A DNA stretch of 59,234 nt from a virus. The position numbers and the translations under genes were made by a program. The notes under the pieces were generated by a model. The model was not told the DNA's origin. It saw only the letters and a list, made by a program, of their open reading frames with translations, and made no database searches. The stretch is taken from positions 1 to 59,234 of the IMG/VR virus record IMGVR_UViG_3300046451_001045, one strand, 5' to 3'. Shown piece after piece: positions 21,563-53,356 of the stretch (positions are counted from its first letter, which is position 1; each line of letters begins with the position of its first letter).

Positions 21563-21568
21563 TATAAT
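21563..21568 (+). promoter_or_regulatory. -10 box TATAAT, 6 nt before the gp55 ATG
   Basis: TGTATAAT with only six bases between the box and the ATG at 21575. The -35 is weak (TTCCAT at 21540-21545, spacer 17). An AAAAACCCCT block ends exactly 22 bases before the box, as it does before the -10 of the methyltransferase gene. A leaderless gp55 mRNA is predicted. Confidence 0.65.
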
Positions 21569-21574
21569 ACAGGT

Positions 21575-22162
21575 ATGAAAACAGAAAAGAAAAAACCCGA
21601 ACACTACGTTAATAACAAAGAATTCACAGCTGCAGTTGTTGCTCATAATATTTCTGTAAAAGAAGCAAAAGCAGTAGGTGAAGTCCCTCCTAGAATGACC
21701 GAGTACATAGGATTATGCATCTATAAGATTGCAACAAGACTATCTACCCGACCAAACTTTATCAATTACACCTACCGTGATGAAATGATATGTGACGCAA
21801 TCGAGAATTGTCTCCAGTATATCAACAACTTCAACACGGAAAAATCAAGTAATGCATTTGCATACGTTACTCAGATTTGTTATTATGCCTTCTTAAGGAG
21901 AATTCAGAAGGAAAAGAAACAGGTCTTTATCAAACAAAAATCAATCATGGAATCATCCATTACAATGGATAGTTTCACCACTATTGATGGTTCATATGAC
22001 CCGACCTATGTTAATACAAATGTCGAATGGTTACAAGAACACATGAATCATGTGGACTATTCACCAAGAAAGAACAAAAAGAAAAGTGAAGTAGTTGAAT
22101 CTAAAGGTGTAGAAGTCTTTTCGGATTCAGATAATATAGGAGTAGAAACAGATGATGAATAA
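21575..22162 (+). CDS. gp55: Late transcription sigma factor gp55
   Basis: This 195-residue protein is the T4 gp55 family sigma factor, which directs host RNA polymerase to TATAAATA-type late promoters with the sliding clamp as activator. The region-2-like core is visible around residues 65-115 (YRDEMICDAIENCLQYI, then NAFAYVTQICYYAFLRRI). Its presence matches the many late boxes in this window. It precedes genes 47 and 46, as in other T4-like genomes. Confidence 0.92.
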   Translation: MKTEKKKPEHYVNNKEFTAAVVAHNISVKEAKAVGEVPPRMTEYIGLCIYKIATRLSTRPNFINYTYRDEMICDAIENCLQYINNFNTEKSSNAFAYVTQICYYAFLRRIQKEKKQVFIKQKSIMESSITMDSFTTIDGSYDPTYVNTNVEWLQEHMNHVDYSPRKNKKKSEVVESKGVEVFSDSDNIGVETDDE

Positions 22163-43845: not shown

Positions 43846-43869
43846 AATTTTAGAAAAAGTCTATATAAT
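43842..43869 (+). promoter_or_regulatory. Early-type promoter before hsp20
   Basis: TTGAAA (43842-43847), 16-base spacer, TATAAT (43864-43869). It overlaps the cyclase stop. A late TATAAATA follows 13 bases later, so the Hsp20 gene has both promoter types. Confidence 0.65.
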
Positions 43870-43882
43870 AGTACTATGGTGT

Positions 43883-43948: not shown

Positions 43949-44386
43949 ATGACAAGCAGACAGCTCGGAGACTTCGATGTCTTCAATTTCGGGAAATCAT
44001 TCCCATTCGCAATCGGGTTCGACAGAACTCTTCAACTATTAGAACGTGCCAATCAGTCACCGACTAATACAAACTATCCACCTTACAATATTGTAAAACA
44101 CGATGCAGAGAACTTCAGTATCGAACTTGCATTAGCTGGATTTGATAAGAAAGACATCACAATCTCAAAAGAGAAAGAGGTTCTTAATATCGAAGGTAAA
44201 CAGAAGGAAGGGGAAAACCTTGAGTATGTCCATAGAGGACTTGCATCTCGTTCATTCAAAAGAACATTCACACTTGCAGACGATATAATCGTTAAAGGTG
44301 CAGATATGAAGAATGGTATTTTGAGTGTATCTTTGGAAAGGATTGTACCCGAAGAAGATAAACCCCAAGAAATCAAAATTTCTTAA
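43949..44386 (+). CDS. hsp20: Small heat-shock protein Hsp20
   Basis: This 145-residue alpha-crystallin-family chaperone holds unfolding proteins. The domain runs from about residue 44 (PPYNIVKHDAENFSIELALAGF) to NGILSVSLERI near 120, and the C-terminus has an EIKIS end resembling the I-x-I/V anchoring tail. The N-terminus FDRTLQLLERANQ is typical of IbpA-like proteins. Hsp20 genes are common in marine T4-like phages. Dual promoters suggest use early and late. Confidence 0.92.
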   Translation: MTSRQLGDFDVFNFGKSFPFAIGFDRTLQLLERANQSPTNTNYPPYNIVKHDAENFSIELALAGFDKKDITISKEKEVLNIEGKQKEGENLEYVHRGLASRSFKRTFTLADDIIVKGADMKNGILSVSLERIVPEEDKPQEIKIS

Positions 44387-44417: not shown

Positions 44418-44423
44418 TATAAT
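44418..44423 (+). promoter_or_regulatory. -10 box TATAAT, 6 nt before the methyltransferase ATG
   Basis: TGTATAAT, six bases, then ATG at 44430. The -35 is weak, but AAAAACCCCT ends exactly 22 bases before the box, as at gp55. This sets the start of the next gene and predicts a leaderless mRNA. Confidence 0.65.
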
Positions 44424-44429
44424 AGAAGC

Positions 44430-45851
44430 ATGTCTGAACTCTATGAAATAATTAAACAAAGTGCAAATCACGATGGCTTACCTATTATTACAGGTAAACA
44501 GTTTGAAGACCTTACTGAAAAATATGGTCGGGAAGAATTCCGTGAACAAGTTGCAAAATACATTGAACAGGAAAGACCACCTTTCCCATTAAAACCCATT
44601 TCCTATGGTAAGATGAAAGATACTTTCATTAGACTTCTAGAGGACGATGTGTGGAGATTCGTAAAACCTAACGAACAGTTAGAACAGGAAGTCGTAGAAA
44701 AATACGATAATTACAAATACCCATACTCAGAATTTGGATTAGGAATGGTCAATGCACCCCCTTCATTTAATGATGCAAGTGATTACTTTATGCAAGACTT
44801 AAGATTGTCTTGTGATTCATATGGTCATAAAGCACCATTGAATGCATTCCGAGATTCAAATGCAAAACAATTGAAATCGGCTCTTGGTGCAATATGGAGA
44901 GGTGTCAATGACATTACTAAAGAAATATCTACAGACGTAGATGGTAATGAAGTTATAAAACTTGTCGGTGGTAAACTAGATGAAGATGCATATAGAACTG
45001 CATTCAGACTTGGTGCCTATATTGCAACACAGTTCAAACCAGTAGTTGCAAAATGTTTCTATGAAATGACTGATGCAAAAACTGTATTAGATACTTCATG
45101 TGGATGGGGAGATAGACTTTGTGGTTTCTATGCAAGTAAGAGAACAACTCATTACATAGGTACAGACCCAAATCCGAACACATTTGTAAACTATAAGAAA
45201 CAATGTATATCTTATGAAACAATTCTTACAGGTAATGCACCAGTAATTACTGAATCAGAAAACTACTTTAAATCCGTTGGTTCAAAGATTGTTGAAATAC
45301 ATAGATGTGGTGCAGAAGATTTAGACTATGATTCACTACCACCAATTGACTGTGCATTCACTTCACCACCTTATTTCTCGACAGAGATATATAACAAGGG
45401 TGGAGAACACGAGGAAGACCAATCATGGTTCAAGTTCAATGAGTATGAGAAGTGGAGAGATGATTTCTTCCTTCCAGTAAGTCAGAAGACTTTTGATTCA
45501 TTATCTGATACAGGTCATATGTTATTAAACATTATGAACCCAACAATTAAAGGTAAAACATACCCTTCATGTGATGAAGTGTGTGACTTACTAAGACCCC
45601 ATTTTAAAGGTCAACTGGGAATGAGAATTATGCAAAGACCACAATCATCTACTAAGTTTCTAGACAAGTGGACAGACGTAAAAGGTGATAGTGATGACAA
45701 TCAAGTGTCAGACAAGGAAGGTATTGATAGAACAGCTATGCAGGATTTCATGAAGAAGTATTACATGGAAAATGTTTGGTACTTTGCAAAAGAAGACAAA
45801 GACCTATTCTTAAAAGTAAGACAAGGACAACTAGATGAGTTTTTCGTATGA
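44430..45851 (+). CDS. DNA methyltransferase (N4-cytosine or N6-adenine type)
   Basis: This 473-residue protein has the SAM-binding motif VLDTSCGWGDR at 219-229 and the catalytic motif TSPPYF at 311-316. SPPY is typical of N4-cytosine methylases, while related sequences also occur in adenine methylases. The N-terminal 200 residues are a phage-specific helical domain that could recognise DNA. No restriction partner is seen, so it would protect or mark phage DNA. The frame extends upstream to 44325, but the promoter fixes the start here. Confidence 0.85.
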   Translation: MSELYEIIKQSANHDGLPIITGKQFEDLTEKYGREEFREQVAKYIEQERPPFPLKPISYGKMKDTFIRLLEDDVWRFVKPNEQLEQEVVEKYDNYKYPYSEFGLGMVNAPPSFNDASDYFMQDLRLSCDSYGHKAPLNAFRDSNAKQLKSALGAIWRGVNDITKEISTDVDGNEVIKLVGGKLDEDAYRTAFRLGAYIATQFKPVVAKCFYEMTDAKTVLDTSCGWGDRLCGFYASKRTTHYIGTDPNPNTFVNYKKQCISYETILTGNAPVITESENYFKSVGSKIVEIHRCGAEDLDYDSLPPIDCAFTSPPYFSTEIYNKGGEHEEDQSWFKFNEYEKWRDDFFLPVSQKTFDSLSDTGHMLLNIMNPTIKGKTYPSCDEVCDLLRPHFKGQLGMRIMQRPQSSTKFLDKWTDVKGDSDDNQVSDKEGIDRTAMQDFMKKYYMENVWYFAKEDKDLFLKVRQGQLDEFFV

Positions 45852-47084: not shown

Positions 47085-47102
47085 GACCAACTGTAGTATA
47101 AT
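47074..47102 (+). promoter_or_regulatory. Sigma70-type promoter, 6 nt before the gp43 ATG
   Basis: TTGTAG (47074-47079), 17-base spacer, TATAAT (47097-47102), six bases, ATG at 47109. Initiation seven bases from the box falls on the first base of the gene, predicting a leaderless polymerase mRNA. Confidence 0.75.
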
Positions 47103-47108
47103 AACTAC

Positions 47109-49622
47109 ATGGATTTCTATACAAACGTATGTCGAACTAGAGACAAAATTCTAGTAAAAGGTTACCAAGGTAAGAAACAGGTGAAGTTATCTGTTGCTTA
47201 TCGTCCTAACCACTTCGTAACCTCTAAGAAAAAGGATTCTCCTTATCGTTCTTTAGATGGTAAACCACTTGATGTTGTTAATCTTGACACCATGGGTGGT
47301 GCAAGAAAGTTCCGAGAACAATACAGTCAAGTAGATAACTTTGAGATTCACGGTTATGATAAGTATGTTTATACTTACATAGCTGATAAGTTTCAGGGTG
47401 AAATCAAATACGACCCAATGAAAATCAAGGTTGCAACACTTGACATCGAGTGTGAGTCGGAGAACGGATTCCCCGAACCTACACTTGCAGAAGAGAAAGT
47501 AAATGCAATCACCATCAAACCATTCAGACATATGGCACATACCTTTGGTATCGGCCCTTGGGATGCACCTGCAAATGTTCATTATTATGAATGTGTTGAT
47601 GAAGCACAACTACTAACTGAGTTCATTAAGTACTGGAGAAAGGAATCTTTTGACATTGTTACAGGATGGAATGTTGATGCATTTGACATGACGTATCTTT
47701 GTAATCGTGTAGATAAACTATTCGGTGAAGGACACCATAAGAAGTTCTCACCTTGGAATATGTCTGATGTAAGAGACTACACAAATAACTATGGTCAAAA
47801 GGTCATGGTGTTTAATCTCTATGGTATCAATATTCTTGACTATATGGAACTGTACAAGAAACATACATTCGTAAACCAAGAATCATACTCACTTAATCAC
47901 ATTGCACATGTTGAATTAGATAAAGCAAAGATTGATTATTCACAATATGGTTCATTACATACCCTTTACAAAGAGAACTATCCACTATTCTTAGAATACA
48001 ATGTCAAAGATGTGACACTTGTAGAAGACTTAGAAGATAAGATGGGGTTACTAGAACTCACATACTCAATGGCTTACAATGCAAAGTGTAACTTTGCAGA
48101 TACCTTTGGTATGGTTAAGTACTGGGAAACAATCATCTACAACTTCCTCAAAGAACAGAACATACAAACACCACCTCAGAAGTTGGATAGAAGTAAACAA
48201 CATTCTATTGTTGGTGCATATGTCAAAGAACCATTAGTAGGTAGACACAACTGGGTTATGTCATTTGACTTGAACTCACTCTATCCCCATATCATTATGC
48301 AACACAATATCTCACCCGAGAAAATGATTAAGGGTGGTCAGAGAATGGATGTTAATGTTCAGAAGATGTTGGATGGTGACGTAGACCTTTCATCACTCAA
48401 ACAATCAAACAGAACTGTAACACCTAACGGAGTAATGTTCACAAGAGACAAACAAGGATTCCTTCCCGAACTCATGGAGACTTTCTATGAGGAAAGAAAA
48501 CTGTGGAAGAAGAAGATGATTGAGTATCAGATTGAGAAAGAATCATGTGATGACCCAAAACGTAATAGGGAACTTGATACACTTATCAAACGTGCATATA
48601 ACAATCAACAGGTTCGTAAGATTGCACTTAACTCTGCATATGGAGCTCTTGCAAATCAATACTTTGCATTCTTTGACCCTAACCTTGCAGAAGCAATTAC
48701 TATGTCGGGTCAGTTGATTATTAAGACTGCAGAGAAATCTATCAACACATGGATGAATAAAGTCCTTTCAACAGAAGACAAAGACTATGTGATTGCAATG
48801 GATACCGATTCAGTCTACATCACTTTTGATGACCTAGTGTCAAAAGTGTTTCCCGAAGATACACCACGAGGAAAAATTTGTGACTTCTTAAATACTATTG
48901 CAATTGATAAAGTCGAAGGTGTTCTTGCAAAGGGATATGATGAACTTGCAGATTACACTAATGCATTCCAACAGAAGATGGAGATGGGTAGAGAGATTAT
49001 TGCAGACCGTGGAATATGGACTGCAAAGAAAAGATACATCCTAAATGTCTTGGACAACGAGGGAGTTCGATATGCAAAACCTAAGTTGAAGATGATGGGT
49101 ATTGAGACTGCAAAGTCCAGTACACCTCAGTGGGTCAGAAAGAAGCTTACAGAAGTGTTCGATGTAGTTATGAATGGAACAGAACAAGAACTTTGGGATT
49201 TCGTGGAATACACAAGAAAGGACTTCCGTAGACTTGCAGTTGAAGATATGTCGTCTCCAAGGGGTTGTAACAACCTCCACAATTACAGGGATGCATCTAG
49301 TATCTATGGAAAGGGTACACCAATCCATGTCAGAGGTGCATTACTTTACAACCATGAACTTAAAAAGAAGAATCTTGATAAGAGATATGAGGTCATTAAA
49401 AACAGTGATAAGATTCACTTCACATACTTGACTGTTCCAAATCCTATCAATGAGAATGTTATATCATTTGCAAATGTATTACCAAGAGAGTTTGACCTTC
49501 ATAGATTTGTGGACTATGATATGCAATTCAACAAGTCATTCATCGAACCTCTTAGAAAAGTCATCGATTTAATAGGGTGGAATACTGAACAAGTTGCATC
49601 ATTGGACTCCTTTTTCTCCTAA
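47109..49622 (+). CDS. gp43: DNA polymerase gp43 (family B)
   Basis: This 837-residue replicative polymerase has proofreading exonuclease and polymerase parts. ExoI is DIE at 112-114. Polymerase motif A is DLNSLYP near 387-393; motif B is in NSAYGALANQYFAF; motif C is DTDSVY at 565-570. Length is close to T4 gp43 (898). It has its own early promoter. Every catalytic motif I looked for is intact. Confidence 0.97.
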   Translation: MDFYTNVCRTRDKILVKGYQGKKQVKLSVAYRPNHFVTSKKKDSPYRSLDGKPLDVVNLDTMGGARKFREQYSQVDNFEIHGYDKYVYTYIADKFQGEIKYDPMKIKVATLDIECESENGFPEPTLAEEKVNAITIKPFRHMAHTFGIGPWDAPANVHYYECVDEAQLLTEFIKYWRKESFDIVTGWNVDAFDMTYLCNRVDKLFGEGHHKKFSPWNMSDVRDYTNNYGQKVMVFNLYGINILDYMELYKKHTFVNQESYSLNHIAHVELDKAKIDYSQYGSLHTLYKENYPLFLEYNVKDVTLVEDLEDKMGLLELTYSMAYNAKCNFADTFGMVKYWETIIYNFLKEQNIQTPPQKLDRSKQHSIVGAYVKEPLVGRHNWVMSFDLNSLYPHIIMQHNISPEKMIKGGQRMDVNVQKMLDGDVDLSSLKQSNRTVTPNGVMFTRDKQGFLPELMETFYEERKLWKKKMIEYQIEKESCDDPKRNRELDTLIKRAYNNQQVRKIALNSAYGALANQYFAFFDPNLAEAITMSGQLIIKTAEKSINTWMNKVLSTEDKDYVIAMDTDSVYITFDDLVSKVFPEDTPRGKICDFLNTIAIDKVEGVLAKGYDELADYTNAFQQKMEMGREIIADRGIWTAKKRYILNVLDNEGVRYAKPKLKMMGIETAKSSTPQWVRKKLTEVFDVVMNGTEQELWDFVEYTRKDFRRLAVEDMSSPRGCNNLHNYRDASSIYGKGTPIHVRGALLYNHELKKKNLDKRYEVIKNSDKIHFTYLTVPNPINENVISFANVLPREFDLHRFVDYDMQFNKSFIEPLRKVIDLIGWNTEQVASLDSFFS

Positions 49623-49630: not shown

Positions 49631-50119
49631 ATGACTAAATCATTTAATCAAAGTGAATTCCATGTAACTGTGACCAAAGTAGTAGACGGTGATACTATTG
49701 ACGTTGATATTGACCTAGGATTTTCAACAGTCCTTAAAAAACAAAGAGTTAGACTAATGGGGATTGATACGCCAGAGTCTAGAACAAGAGACCTAGTGGA
49801 GAAAATCTTTGGAAAAGCAGCTAAAGCAAATCTTAAGAAGTTACTTTCAGAAGGTGATGTTACACTCGTTAGCCATGACAAAGGAAAGTTCGGACGCATA
49901 CTTGGAGAACTTTTTGTCACAAAACACGACAACGAAGGACACCCAGTGTTCGAAACAGAAACAAGAGTCTCAGTAAATCAACAAATGATTGACCAACACC
50001 ATGCAGTACTGTACACTGGTGAGAACAAAGACACTACAGAAGCAAGACACTTAGAACATCGTAAACTCTTATTAGAAAACGGGACTGTCACCCAAGAACA
50101 GATAGACGAGGTTCTCTAA
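49631..50119 (+). CDS. Staphylococcal-nuclease-like (SNase) protein
   Basis: This 162-residue protein has the SNase fold motifs: VVDGDTI with D21, then RLMGIDTPE with R41, D46 and E49, and KFGRIL with R89, corresponding to staphylococcal nuclease D21, R35, D40, E43 and R87. It should be a calcium-dependent nuclease acting on DNA or RNA. There is no signal peptide, so it is intracellular and could degrade host DNA or process intermediates. Confidence 0.9.
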   Translation: MTKSFNQSEFHVTVTKVVDGDTIDVDIDLGFSTVLKKQRVRLMGIDTPESRTRDLVEKIFGKAAKANLKKLLSEGDVTLVSHDKGKFGRILGELFVTKHDNEGHPVFETETRVSVNQQMIDQHHAVLYTGENKDTTEARHLEHRKLLLENGTVTQEQIDEVL

Positions 50120-50301
50120 TGATAATTTCCCTAATAGATTTATTCTATATTGGGATGATAATTATGATATTTTCCATGATGGCATATATGGAAGTTCAAA
50201 TACATACCCTCAAGACCATGATGGAAGAACATGTCAAAGTTGACGAGAAAATGTGTCAGATTGCTGAAAGATTAATCAAAGAAAAAACCAAAACTCTCTA
50301 G
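50119..50301 (+). CDS. Small membrane-anchored coiled-coil protein
   Basis: This 60-residue protein has a hydrophobic N-terminal helix (LIDLFYIGMIIMIFSMMAYM) followed by a charged helix. Start overlaps the SNase stop. The layout repeats that of the proteins at 2355, 36507 and 36803. Function unknown; holin-like use is possible. Confidence 0.6.
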   Translation: MIISLIDLFYIGMIIMIFSMMAYMEVQIHTLKTMMEEHVKVDEKMCQIAERLIKEKTKTL

Positions 50302-50328
50302 ACAACGACCCCCTTTTTATTGTATAAT
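50299..50328 (+). promoter_or_regulatory. Sigma70-type promoter, 6 nt before the lipoprotein ATG
   Basis: TAGACA (50299-50304), 18-base spacer, TATAAT (50323-50328), six bases, ATG at 50335. The spacer contains ACGACCCCCTTTTTATTG, related to the promoter at 27734. Leaderless mRNA predicted. Confidence 0.75.
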
Positions 50329-50334
50329 ACAATA

Positions 50335-51612
50335 ATGAGAAAACTAAACAAAGCTTGTACCTTACTACTAACTGCACTATTCCTTGCCTCTTGTGGAGGA
50401 GGGAGTTCCAATAACTGGACACCTGTAGAGACTGCCTCTACACCACCACCTCCACCACCTAGTGGTTGCACATCCAATTGTGGTAATGATACTACTTATT
50501 ATGGGGACTACAGTGATGCAGTCGAGTACATCATGCAAGATGGGTTCTATACACAGGCATTAGTAATATATAAGGATGGTGAACTCTTAAGAGAGGACTA
50601 CCGAGATATAACAGGGAACGAAGCAACTGCAGTAATTACAAAACAAACAGCACTTACTGAACAACAAATACAGGACTATTATGCCTATAATGACGAGTAT
50701 GACAAAACAGGTACTTGGTCAGTAACTAAGTCCTTTATGAGTATTTTAGTAGGTATTGCAATAGACAACGGATTCATACAATCATTAGAACAGAGGTCAG
50801 ATGATTTTATAACCGAATGGTATGGTAGAAGTCAAGGTCAGATGGTTACTATTGGACACTTGCTAGACCATAGAAGTGGTCTACAGGTTATGTGTTCTAA
50901 TAATTATTCTTCTTATGAATTCTTTGAATGCCAAGAAAATCCCGATGGTGGGACAATAACCTATCTTCATGACCAATTGTTCTCATGTATAAACCGAAGT
51001 TTGTATCCAAACGCATCCCCCCCACCATTTTGGAATTACGATAGAGATGGTTCATGGAAACAACAATCTCATATCTATAGTAATTGTGACAGCCAGATAT
51101 TGGGTGAAATTCTTACTCGTGCAACAGGAATGGATGTATCTGAATTTGCAGATAGATATCTATTTTCCCAATTGGGAATACAGGATGTCTTTTGGTGGAA
51201 AGATATGGCCGGCAACACATTATCGTATTGTTGTGTAGAGATTTCCGCAAAAGACCAAGCAAAAATAGGTCAGATGATATTAGATAACGATGGAAGTATC
51301 GTGAGTAGGGAATTCATTGATGGTATAGATACTTCAACAAGATATTCAAGAAGTTTTAGAAATACTGAGGGGTGGATAACGATGAATGGGTTTGACCTCA
51401 ACTTCATTCTGATGCATAAGGAAAAGAATATGGTCATTGTGAGGAGTTCATTATATGCAAGTGTTACAGAATATGATGGAACTCGTACAATAAATTATCA
51501 ACTTGGTACACCCGAATGGGATTCAAATTTTCCAGCATCACTACCAATGGGTATAGCAATGGAAGGAGTTGATGTAGACATGATGGGTGAATTAATATCA
51601 AAAATCGACTAG
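50335..51612 (+). CDS. Serine-hydrolase lipoprotein (beta-lactamase/PBP-C fold)
   Basis: This 425-residue protein has a lipoprotein signal with lipobox LASC (Cys 20), a Pro/Ser linker, then the class C beta-lactamase-like serine hydrolase fold. The nucleophile motif S129-V-T-K132 is intact, as is the second motif Y248-S-N250, followed by ILGEIL. The family includes carboxypeptidases, esterases and NylB-type hydrolases, so function is not antibiotic resistance by default. It would act at the cell envelope. A TTG start at 50320 exists but lies in the promoter. Confidence 0.87.
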   Translation: MRKLNKACTLLLTALFLASCGGGSSNNWTPVETASTPPPPPPSGCTSNCGNDTTYYGDYSDAVEYIMQDGFYTQALVIYKDGELLREDYRDITGNEATAVITKQTALTEQQIQDYYAYNDEYDKTGTWSVTKSFMSILVGIAIDNGFIQSLEQRSDDFITEWYGRSQGQMVTIGHLLDHRSGLQVMCSNNYSSYEFFECQENPDGGTITYLHDQLFSCINRSLYPNASPPPFWNYDRDGSWKQQSHIYSNCDSQILGEILTRATGMDVSEFADRYLFSQLGIQDVFWWKDMAGNTLSYCCVEISAKDQAKIGQMILDNDGSIVSREFIDGIDTSTRYSRSFRNTEGWITMNGFDLNFILMHKEKNMVIVRSSLYASVTEYDGTRTINYQLGTPEWDSNFPASLPMGIAMEGVDVDMMGELISKID

Positions 51613-51638
51613 ACAGAGTGACAATATAGTAGTATAAT
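51610..51638 (+). promoter_or_regulatory. Sigma70-type promoter for uvsX
   Basis: TAGACA (51610-51615), 17-base spacer, TATAAT (51633-51638). It overlaps the lipoprotein stop and gives an ordinary short leader with AGAGG before the uvsX ATG at 51664. Confidence 0.78.
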
Positions 51639-51663: not shown

Positions 51664-52725
51664 ATGAGTTTTTTAAAAGACCTAGTAAAGGCAAGTGGTA
51701 ATGAGTATGCAAGTATCGTCAATGATGGTGTTGCAGCTGGAGACGTTGATTCGTTTATAGATACTGGTTCACATATTTTCAATGCACTATTGAGTGGTTC
51801 ATTATATGGAGGATTACCATCAAACAAGATTACCGCAATTGCAGGTGAGTCTGCAACAGGTAAGACCTTCTTTGCACTAGGAATGGTAAAACAGTTTCTA
51901 GATGACAACAAAGATGCAGCCGTAATCTACTTCGAATCTGAATCTGCAATATCAAGAGATATGATTGAATCTAGGGGAATTGACTCTAAGAGAGTTGTTA
52001 TAGTTCCTGTAGTTACAGTGCAAGAGTTCAGAAATCAAGCAATTAGTATACTGGATAAGTATGCAGAAACCCCCCAAGCCAAACGTCCACCTATGATGTT
52101 CTGTTTAGATTCACTTGGTATGTTATCAACAACCAAAGAAATCGAAGACACTGCAGAAGGTAAAGAGACTAAAGATATGACTCGTGCTCAAATCACCAAA
52201 GGTGCATTCAGAGTATTGACATTGAAATTAGGTAGAGTCGGTGTTCCCATGATAGTCACGAACCACACATATGATGTGATTGGTTCTATGTTCCCTCAGA
52301 AAGAAATGGGTGGTGGTAGTGGACTCAAGTACGCTGCATCATCAATCATATTCTTATCTAAGAAGAAAGAAAAGGAAGGAACAGAAGTAGTTGGTAATAT
52401 CATTCATTGTAAGAATGCAAAGTCAAGATTGACTGTGGAAAACAGAATGGTTGATGTAAGGTTATCATATGAAAAAGGACTGGATAGGTACTATGGTCTA
52501 TTAGACATGGCACTTGCATTTGGAGTATTTCAGAAATCAAGTACAAGAGTTCTATTACCAAACGGTAAATCTGAATTTGGTAAAACAATTAACAACAATC
52601 CTGAAAAATACTTCACACCCGATGTGATGGAAAAATTAGAGAAAGTTGCAAATGAATATTTCCGATATGGTAGTAATATTGATGAAGGAATTTCAGAAGT
52701 AGATGATACCGATAACGATAGTTGA
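51664..52725 (+). CDS. uvsX: Recombinase UvsX (RecA-like)
   Basis: This 353-residue RecA-family protein drives strand exchange. Walker A GESATGKT is at 61-68, and [10 protein letters not shown] near 147-156 is Walker B. The [15 protein letters not shown]2 loop region is recognisable. It works with UvsY (17166). Length is close to T4 UvsX (391). It overlaps the next gene by 23 bases. Confidence 0.95.
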
Positions 52726-53356
52726 TAACTTTTTAGATGAACCCCATCAAATGGTGGAGTTCTCTAAACAATTAATTTTCACCCCCGAACCCGATGGTAG
52801 ATGGGCTGGTATTAGGTCACCCGAACTGCGTGACATAGACCCTTTCCTATATGACAACATAAACAAAAAGGTGATTGCACTATTCCATGACATGGAAAGT
52901 ATCGACCACACAGATGTAGATGTATCAATGACATTTCAAAAGATACCATCAACCCTCCATCATGGATGGGTGCATAACGATAATTGTTTCATGACTGGTA
53001 TTTTATATTTAAATGAAAACCCACTAGTAAATAGTGGAACTTCATTGTATACTAGTAAAGAAGGAACACTAATCAACCTAGACCATACAGAACAAAAGAG
53101 AGCGTCTAACCTTAGAGGTTCCATATCAGAAATTGAAATGGAAGTTCAAGAGGAACATAATAACCAGTTTGAGAAGACTGTTGATGTTAAAGGTAAATAC
53201 AATAGGTTAACTCTATTTCACGGTAATGTCCACCATAGTGCAAACAACCTTGGACTGGACAATGGTGAAGATAGATTAACTTTGGTAATGTTTTTTCATA
53301 GGGTGATTGGTAGAGAAATGCCAATTGATAGAATGAGAACAGTGAGAAAATTATGA
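52703..53356 (+). CDS. 2OG-Fe(II)-oxygenase-fold protein (DUF6445-like)
   Basis: This 217-residue protein has H91-x-D93 in WVHNDNCF, the strand GILYLNEN, the distal His region NVHHSANN near 175-182 and Arg 191 in DRLTLVMFF. The pattern fits DUF6445-type members of the 2OG superfamily. It is the sixth oxygenase-like protein in this window and overlaps both uvsX and gp41. Confidence 0.75.

Follow-up and report, generated by a model that had tools for sequence, protein, structure and literature searches.

We describe here a phage gene, located at 50335..51612 on the + strand of a 59,234-nucleotide stretch of viral DNA (IMG/VR record IMGVR_UViG_3300046451_001045, hereafter called the window), for which the evidence supports a predicted 425-aa product that is a lipid-anchored serine hydrolase of the class C/PBP fold, resembling NylB, PIB-1, and Lsa45 (PF00144). 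In phages, the gene is an insert of single origin. The gene itself, its promoter pattern, the lipobox, the fold match, the alignment of the catalytic triad, the insertion site, the single origin, and a bacterial subfamily of relatives were all shown by the analysis. The explanation that we favor, while holding it to be somewhat short of probable, is a moron derived from the host, whose product, an ester/amide hydrolase of the outer membrane, would alter the host envelope, most likely to the disadvantage of co-infecting phages.

Sequence features of the lipoprotein

The open reading frame translates to a protein with the N terminus MRKLNKACTLLLTALFLASCGGGSS. Its sequence begins with a type II signal peptide (50335..50394, +; MRKLNKACTLLLTALFLASC), in which the lipobox L17-A-S-C20, part of LFLASC, is followed by GGGSS. 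C20 was unchanged across an alignment of 16 phage and bacterial relatives. Under the Lol rule of E. coli, a Gly at position +2 is expected to direct sorting to the outer membrane, and the Gly found at +2 here is consistent with a predicted outer-membrane location. A low-complexity, Pro-rich linker with STPPPPPPSG (residues ~25 to 57; 50407..50505, +) was modeled with low confidence and differs in length and sequence among alleles. The protein also contains WSVTKSF and HIYSNCDS, and the features listed in an earlier note on this DNA (lipobox LASC, Pro-rich linker, SVTK, and YSN) can all be read in the translation. The PF00144 profile matched with an E value of 5e-13 and 49.3 bits against a cut-off of 27, and the copies in two other phages, L003 and L012, scored 47.9 and 46.6 bits.

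Active-site motifs and predicted fold

Alignments place motif 1, S129-V-T-K132 (50719..50730, +), as putative nucleophile and general base, matching S112/K115 of NylB, and motif 2, Y248-S-N250 (51076..51084, +), with Y248 matching NylB Y215. The hmmsearch profile alignment thus sets S129/K132/Y248 on the NylB triad S112/K115/Y215, and S129, K132, Y248, and N250 were unchanged in every aligned phage and bacterial member. The third-motif region, G352-F-D-L-N356 (51388..51402, +, again from alignments), is more variable. The form looked for at this motif is KTG or HxG, here GxxGQ; the sequence reads GFDGQ or a close variant in nearly all aligned bacterial relatives, GFDGQ in L012, GFDGN in L003, and GFDLN in the window, L001, and L002. 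The window allele keeps G352 and has Leu at 355 for Gly and Asn at 356 for Gln, changes present in three of the five phage alleles. Judged from sequence, then, the window allele retains motifs 1 and 2 but departs from its relatives at motif 3, so that the earlier description of an "intact active site" holds for S129/K132 and Y248/N250 but not for the third motif of the window, L001, and L002.

An AlphaFold2 model, for which 20 sequences from phages and bacteria were aligned, had a mean pLDDT of 74 and a pTM of 0.79, with much of the catalytic core above 90 and low confidence in the linker (residues 16 to 56) and in loops 188 to 208 and 229 to 245. As modeled, the structure is a complete hydrolase fold, which speaks against the missing hydrolase pocket that the earlier note had named as a refuting outcome. 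Its top structural matches were NylB (Z 29.9), Lsa45 (Z 29.6), and PIB-1 (Z 29.0), and the esterases EstB, EstG, and Est-Y29 and a D-amino-acid amidase followed at Z near 25. Foldseek E values were 1e-13 to 1e-16. The assignment to the class C beta-lactamase/PBP fold made in the earlier note is therefore upheld both by the PF00144 score and by a model that reaches a Z of about 30 to NylB. NylB, the 6-aminohexanoate-dimer hydrolase, is not known to be a lipoprotein; Lsa45 of Leptospira, a surface lipoprotein, belongs to a different lineage from the phage protein. The match to NylB (1wyb, 3vwm) spans ~290 residues with an rmsd of about 3 at about 20% identity, that to Lsa45 (8dc1, whose entry text describes a PBP with esterase activity) has 21% identity, and that to PIB-1, a class C-related serine hydrolase (8rlj), about 20%.

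The shared fold and the SxxK and YxN motifs would also suit a true class C beta-lactamase that shields the infected host from beta-lactams. The NCBIfam class C model, however, scored only 12.8 bits where its cut-off is 415, the KTG motif is missing, and NylB, Lsa45, and PIB-1 are much closer; this candidate was rejected and, in our estimation, has next to no chance of being correct.

The sole phage family in which we found the domain is that of the mycobacteriophage minor tail proteins with lysin activity (phrog_382). The match to phrog_382 (E = 7e-11), together with mycobacteriophage minor tail proteins among the matches in the viral structure library BFVD (the others being giant-virus proteins), raises the alternative that the protein attacks peptidoglycan, either as part of the tail or in lysis. 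The phrog_382 proteins are large tail proteins, though, and align at 26% identity over 39% of the phage lipoprotein, which is free-standing, has no tail domain, and is encoded among replication genes. Bacterial lipoproteins were the nearest relatives, not tail proteins, which the earlier note had named as the refuting outcome. We rejected the tail lysin on score, architecture, and place, and consider it very improbable. Among 50,697 INPHARED phage records, the only match was this single weak one to a mycobacteriophage tail lysin, with no full-length relative, which agrees with the rarity in phages that had been claimed. Searches with anti-phage defense models gave no match.

Bacterial relatives and a candidate source

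A first genome scan with patterns taken from phage proteins only found no bacterial relative. A looser alignment, run as the query against genomes of bacteria and archaea, recovered the subfamily, the closest cellular matches being lipoproteins of SAR86, Woeseiaceae, Altererythrobacter/Erythrobacter, Sphingomonadaceae, and Caulobacteraceae (E = 1e-62 to 1e-45); in the same scan, generic PF00144 proteins appeared only at 1e-30 and weaker. The SAR86/Woeseiaceae/sphingomonad lipoproteins (for example, L177 to L189, L094, and L093), for which no curated subfamily name was found, align over their full length with the phage proteins. Common to both are the lipobox C(G/S)GG, a long insert that separates motif 1 from motif 2, the cysteines C187, C218, C251, and C299-C300, and the motifs SxxK, YxN, and WWxD. 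They differ in that identity is only 28 to 38%, the phage proteins lack an N-terminal W..TPESxGM segment, and the bacterial GFDGQ contrasts with GFDLN in the window allele.

In phylogenetic trees, the phage sequences formed one clade (100/100) inside the bacterial subfamily, and the branch uniting phage and bacterial members stood apart from other PF00144 proteins (100/100 in the wider tree and 100/99 in a second tree). A horizontal bacterial source, which the earlier note had suggested looking for, is supported. The nearest bacterial row by path differed by tree, being L094 of Woeseiaceae in the wider tree and L184 of SAR86 in the second. Plasmid-borne PF00144 proteins reached only 21 to 30% identity and included no close source.

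At E <= 1e-30, members of the subfamily were present in 41 of 203 SAR86-order genomes, in 1 of 368 sampled Gammaproteobacteria, itself of the SAR86 order, and in 0 of 384 Alphaproteobacteria, the query genomes having been excluded from both class samples. The enrichment in the SAR86 order gave Fisher p values of about 1e-18 and below, which exaggerate the contrast, as related genomes are not independent. Because the subfamily is concentrated in SAR86-order genomes, a SAR86-like donor or host is suggested. A separate attempt to link the phage to a SAR86 host through binned phage contigs, by a polB search, returned one T4-like contig in one bin and was set aside as too weak, with mis-binning possible. 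This contig, L199 (G186:C62:14000-33000), holds a related module of polB, uvsX, and gp41, and the SAR86-order genome to which it was binned has the lipoprotein subfamily as well.

The neighborhoods of the bacterial genes shared no common operon, and neighbors varied by lineage. In several SAR86-order genomes, its neighbors look, by eye, oxidoreductase-like or otherwise metabolic. Such neighbors, the presence of related lipoproteins in about 21% of SAR86-order genomes, and the amide/ester hydrolase activity of NylB-type relatives would suit an auxiliary metabolic enzyme, that is, a host-derived lipoprotein hydrolase that helps to scavenge ester- or amide-bound nutrients and changes the surface only incidentally. 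The phage gene, however, shows rapid, mosaic evolution instead of conservation, and the phage locus has no conserved metabolic neighbor. We regard this alternative as possible but rather unlikely.

Insertion site and distribution in phages

Five IMG/VR phage contigs carry the lipoprotein gene: the window and L001 (98%), L002 (97%), L003 (88%), and L012 (56%). Immediately upstream lies a conserved gene for a 60-aa membrane protein (50119..50301, +), which comparison of relatives places outside the insert and which itself follows SNase; downstream lies the uvsX recombinase gene (51664..52725, +). The gene had been described as sitting between SNase and uvsX, which is right for uvsX; on the other side, the membrane-protein gene separates it from SNase.

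The slot was compared across 80 relatives selected by polB, as far as each contig covers it. Among them, SNase was followed in conserved order by the 60-aa membrane protein, uvsX, and gp41, whereas the lipoprotein was confined to the window clade and the slot was empty in most. In L060 and L061, the slot holds a different gene of 348 aa (L060:9248-10294) with its own promoter-like sequence and no significant Pfam or PHROG match. Because the lipoprotein occurs only in the window clade and another gene occupies the same place in L060/L061, we interpret the slot as a place where cargo genes insert. On either side of the insert stands a CTAGACA box that is at once a stop codon and a -35 element.

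Two further genes of the window deserve mention. One, a DUF6445/phrog_1644 gene (52703-53356) between uvsX and gp41, was found among the fetched relatives only at lipoprotein-carrying loci. The other (43949-44386) resembles, by eye, a small heat-shock protein of the Hsp20 type.

Promoter and predicted leaderless start

The lipoprotein gene has its own promoter (50299..50334, +), with a -35 element TAGACA (50299-50304), an 18-nt spacer, a -10 element TATAAT (50323-50328), and 6 nt to the ATG. A second promoter (51610..51638, +; TAGACA-N17-TATAAT) serves uvsX, and its -35 element overlaps the lipoprotein stop codon. These were the two best sigma-70 matches (11/12) in 14 kb, a region in which the total number of promoter-like sites was not above chance. 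The consensus promoter reported earlier is confirmed as a pattern. No Shine-Dalgarno-like motif precedes the ATG, and the layout is kept with the same spacing in L012 at 56% protein identity (CTAGACA..CCCCC..TATTAT-N6-ATG). A leaderless start, also proposed in the earlier note, is supported by these features.

The exact arrangement TATAAT-N6-ATG was found at 6 of the 23 plus-strand TATAAT sites in the window, with 0.6 expected; five of the six resemble starts of genes or short ORFs, and one falls inside an ORF. At polB, the layout also recurs in dozens of relatives. The -10 box of the lipoprotein gene lies within an inverted repeat, ATTGTAT-A-ATACAAT (50319-50333), and the arms of the repeats at polB and the lipoprotein gene vary among phages while mostly remaining complementary. 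At the polB promoter, the stem averaged 5.5, whereas shuffled sequences gave 3.5 and control sites 3.1. As side observations, arms covary across 30 distinct polB promoters of related phages (CTGT..ACAG, GTAG..CTAC, and TATAG..CTATA); TATAAT-N6-ATG with the -10 box in an inverted repeat occurs at window positions 47097-47111, 50323-50337, 21563-21577, 44418-44432, and 43864-43878; and the promoter at 44418 lies between the arms of an inverted repeat of 12 bp, CAGACATGCTTC/GAAGCATGTCTG.

Divergence among alleles

Between the window and L003, polB, uvsX, and gp41 are more than 99% identical in DNA, and these genes are more than 98.8% identical among the close alleles overall. The lipoprotein genes of the window and L003 nevertheless diverge in patches at codons 25-42, 187-246, and 343-425, which alternate with near-identical blocks. 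The dN/dS ratio was 0.45 against L003 and 0.28 against L012, the latter reflecting purifying selection. In the divergent patches dS was raised too, and SNase (49631-50119) is also mosaic, with a 13% DNA difference from L003 versus 0.2% in the adjoining polB; for both reasons, allele exchange at the lipoprotein gene is likely. Recombination, rather than selection, may be the cause of the patches, although their divergence is also compatible with an exposed protein under changing pressure.

A narrow distribution, an altered third motif, and raised dN/dS between close alleles are what recently acquired cargo decaying without a selected function might display. Yet the reading frame is open in all five phage contigs, dN/dS against L012 is 0.28, and the triad, the Cys residues, the lipobox, and the promoter are all retained, which makes decay quite improbable.

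Phage lipoproteins that jam outer-membrane receptors without catalysis are known, T5 Llp being one example (PMC9586334). Like Llp, the protein described here is phage encoded and, by prediction, an outer-membrane lipoprotein, and its role may be analogous; Llp differs in being small and acting by FhuA binding, and we claim no homology. A non-catalytic lipoprotein of this sort, excluding superinfection by binding or blocking a receptor, with the hydrolase fold as a mere scaffold, would explain the change from GFDGQ to GFDLN in the window, L001, and L002 and the variable patches at 187-246 and 343-425. It accounts poorly for the invariance of S129, K132, Y248, and N250 across every phage and bacterial sequence aligned and for the full third motif of L012; Llp, moreover, is small and differs in kind. 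We judge this explanation distinctly unlikely.

Proposed role

Our favored explanation, the host-derived envelope hydrolase, can be set out as follows, with expression, export, catalysis, substrate, and benefit as the parts that we infer. In a marine T4-like phage, the interval that separates uvsX from the 60-aa membrane-protein gene would hold a moron, a cargo gene with transcription of its own, derived from bacteria. As its own sigma-70-type leaderless promoter would be active alongside the replication genes, transcription would fall in early or middle infection. The product would be exported and receive its lipid at C20, and the Gly at +2 would send it to the outer membrane. There, the NylB-like domain on its flexible linker would cut an ester or amide through an acyl-enzyme, with S129 as the nucleophile and with K132 and Y248 in acid/base roles. 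Its substrate would belong to the envelope of the host itself or to the nearby periplasm. The most likely benefit would be a changed cell surface that disfavors co-infecting phages, and a role in superinfection exclusion is plausible; the main alternative is augmented host nutrition. It weighs against the envelope hydrolase that the varied metabolic neighbors of the bacterial relatives fit nutrition as well as envelope change and that the third motif is altered in three of the five phage alleles. A more specific version, which we think unlikely, is that a lytic phage, probably of SAR86-like bacteria, excludes its rivals enzymatically, an outer-membrane NylB-type hydrolase trimming a surface ester or amide while its patches and third motif diversify with receptors or substrates.

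Phage lipoproteins that alter the host surface are known, and T5 Llp and Cor are small binders. A literature search found no paper on phage serine-hydrolase lipoproteins with superinfection exclusion. SAR86 is an abundant and poorly cultured marine group, and its phages are little known. Because the gene described here ties a lineage of T4-like phages to a subfamily of lipoproteins concentrated in SAR86, it provides a hypothesis on the host and an enzyme, both of which can be tested.
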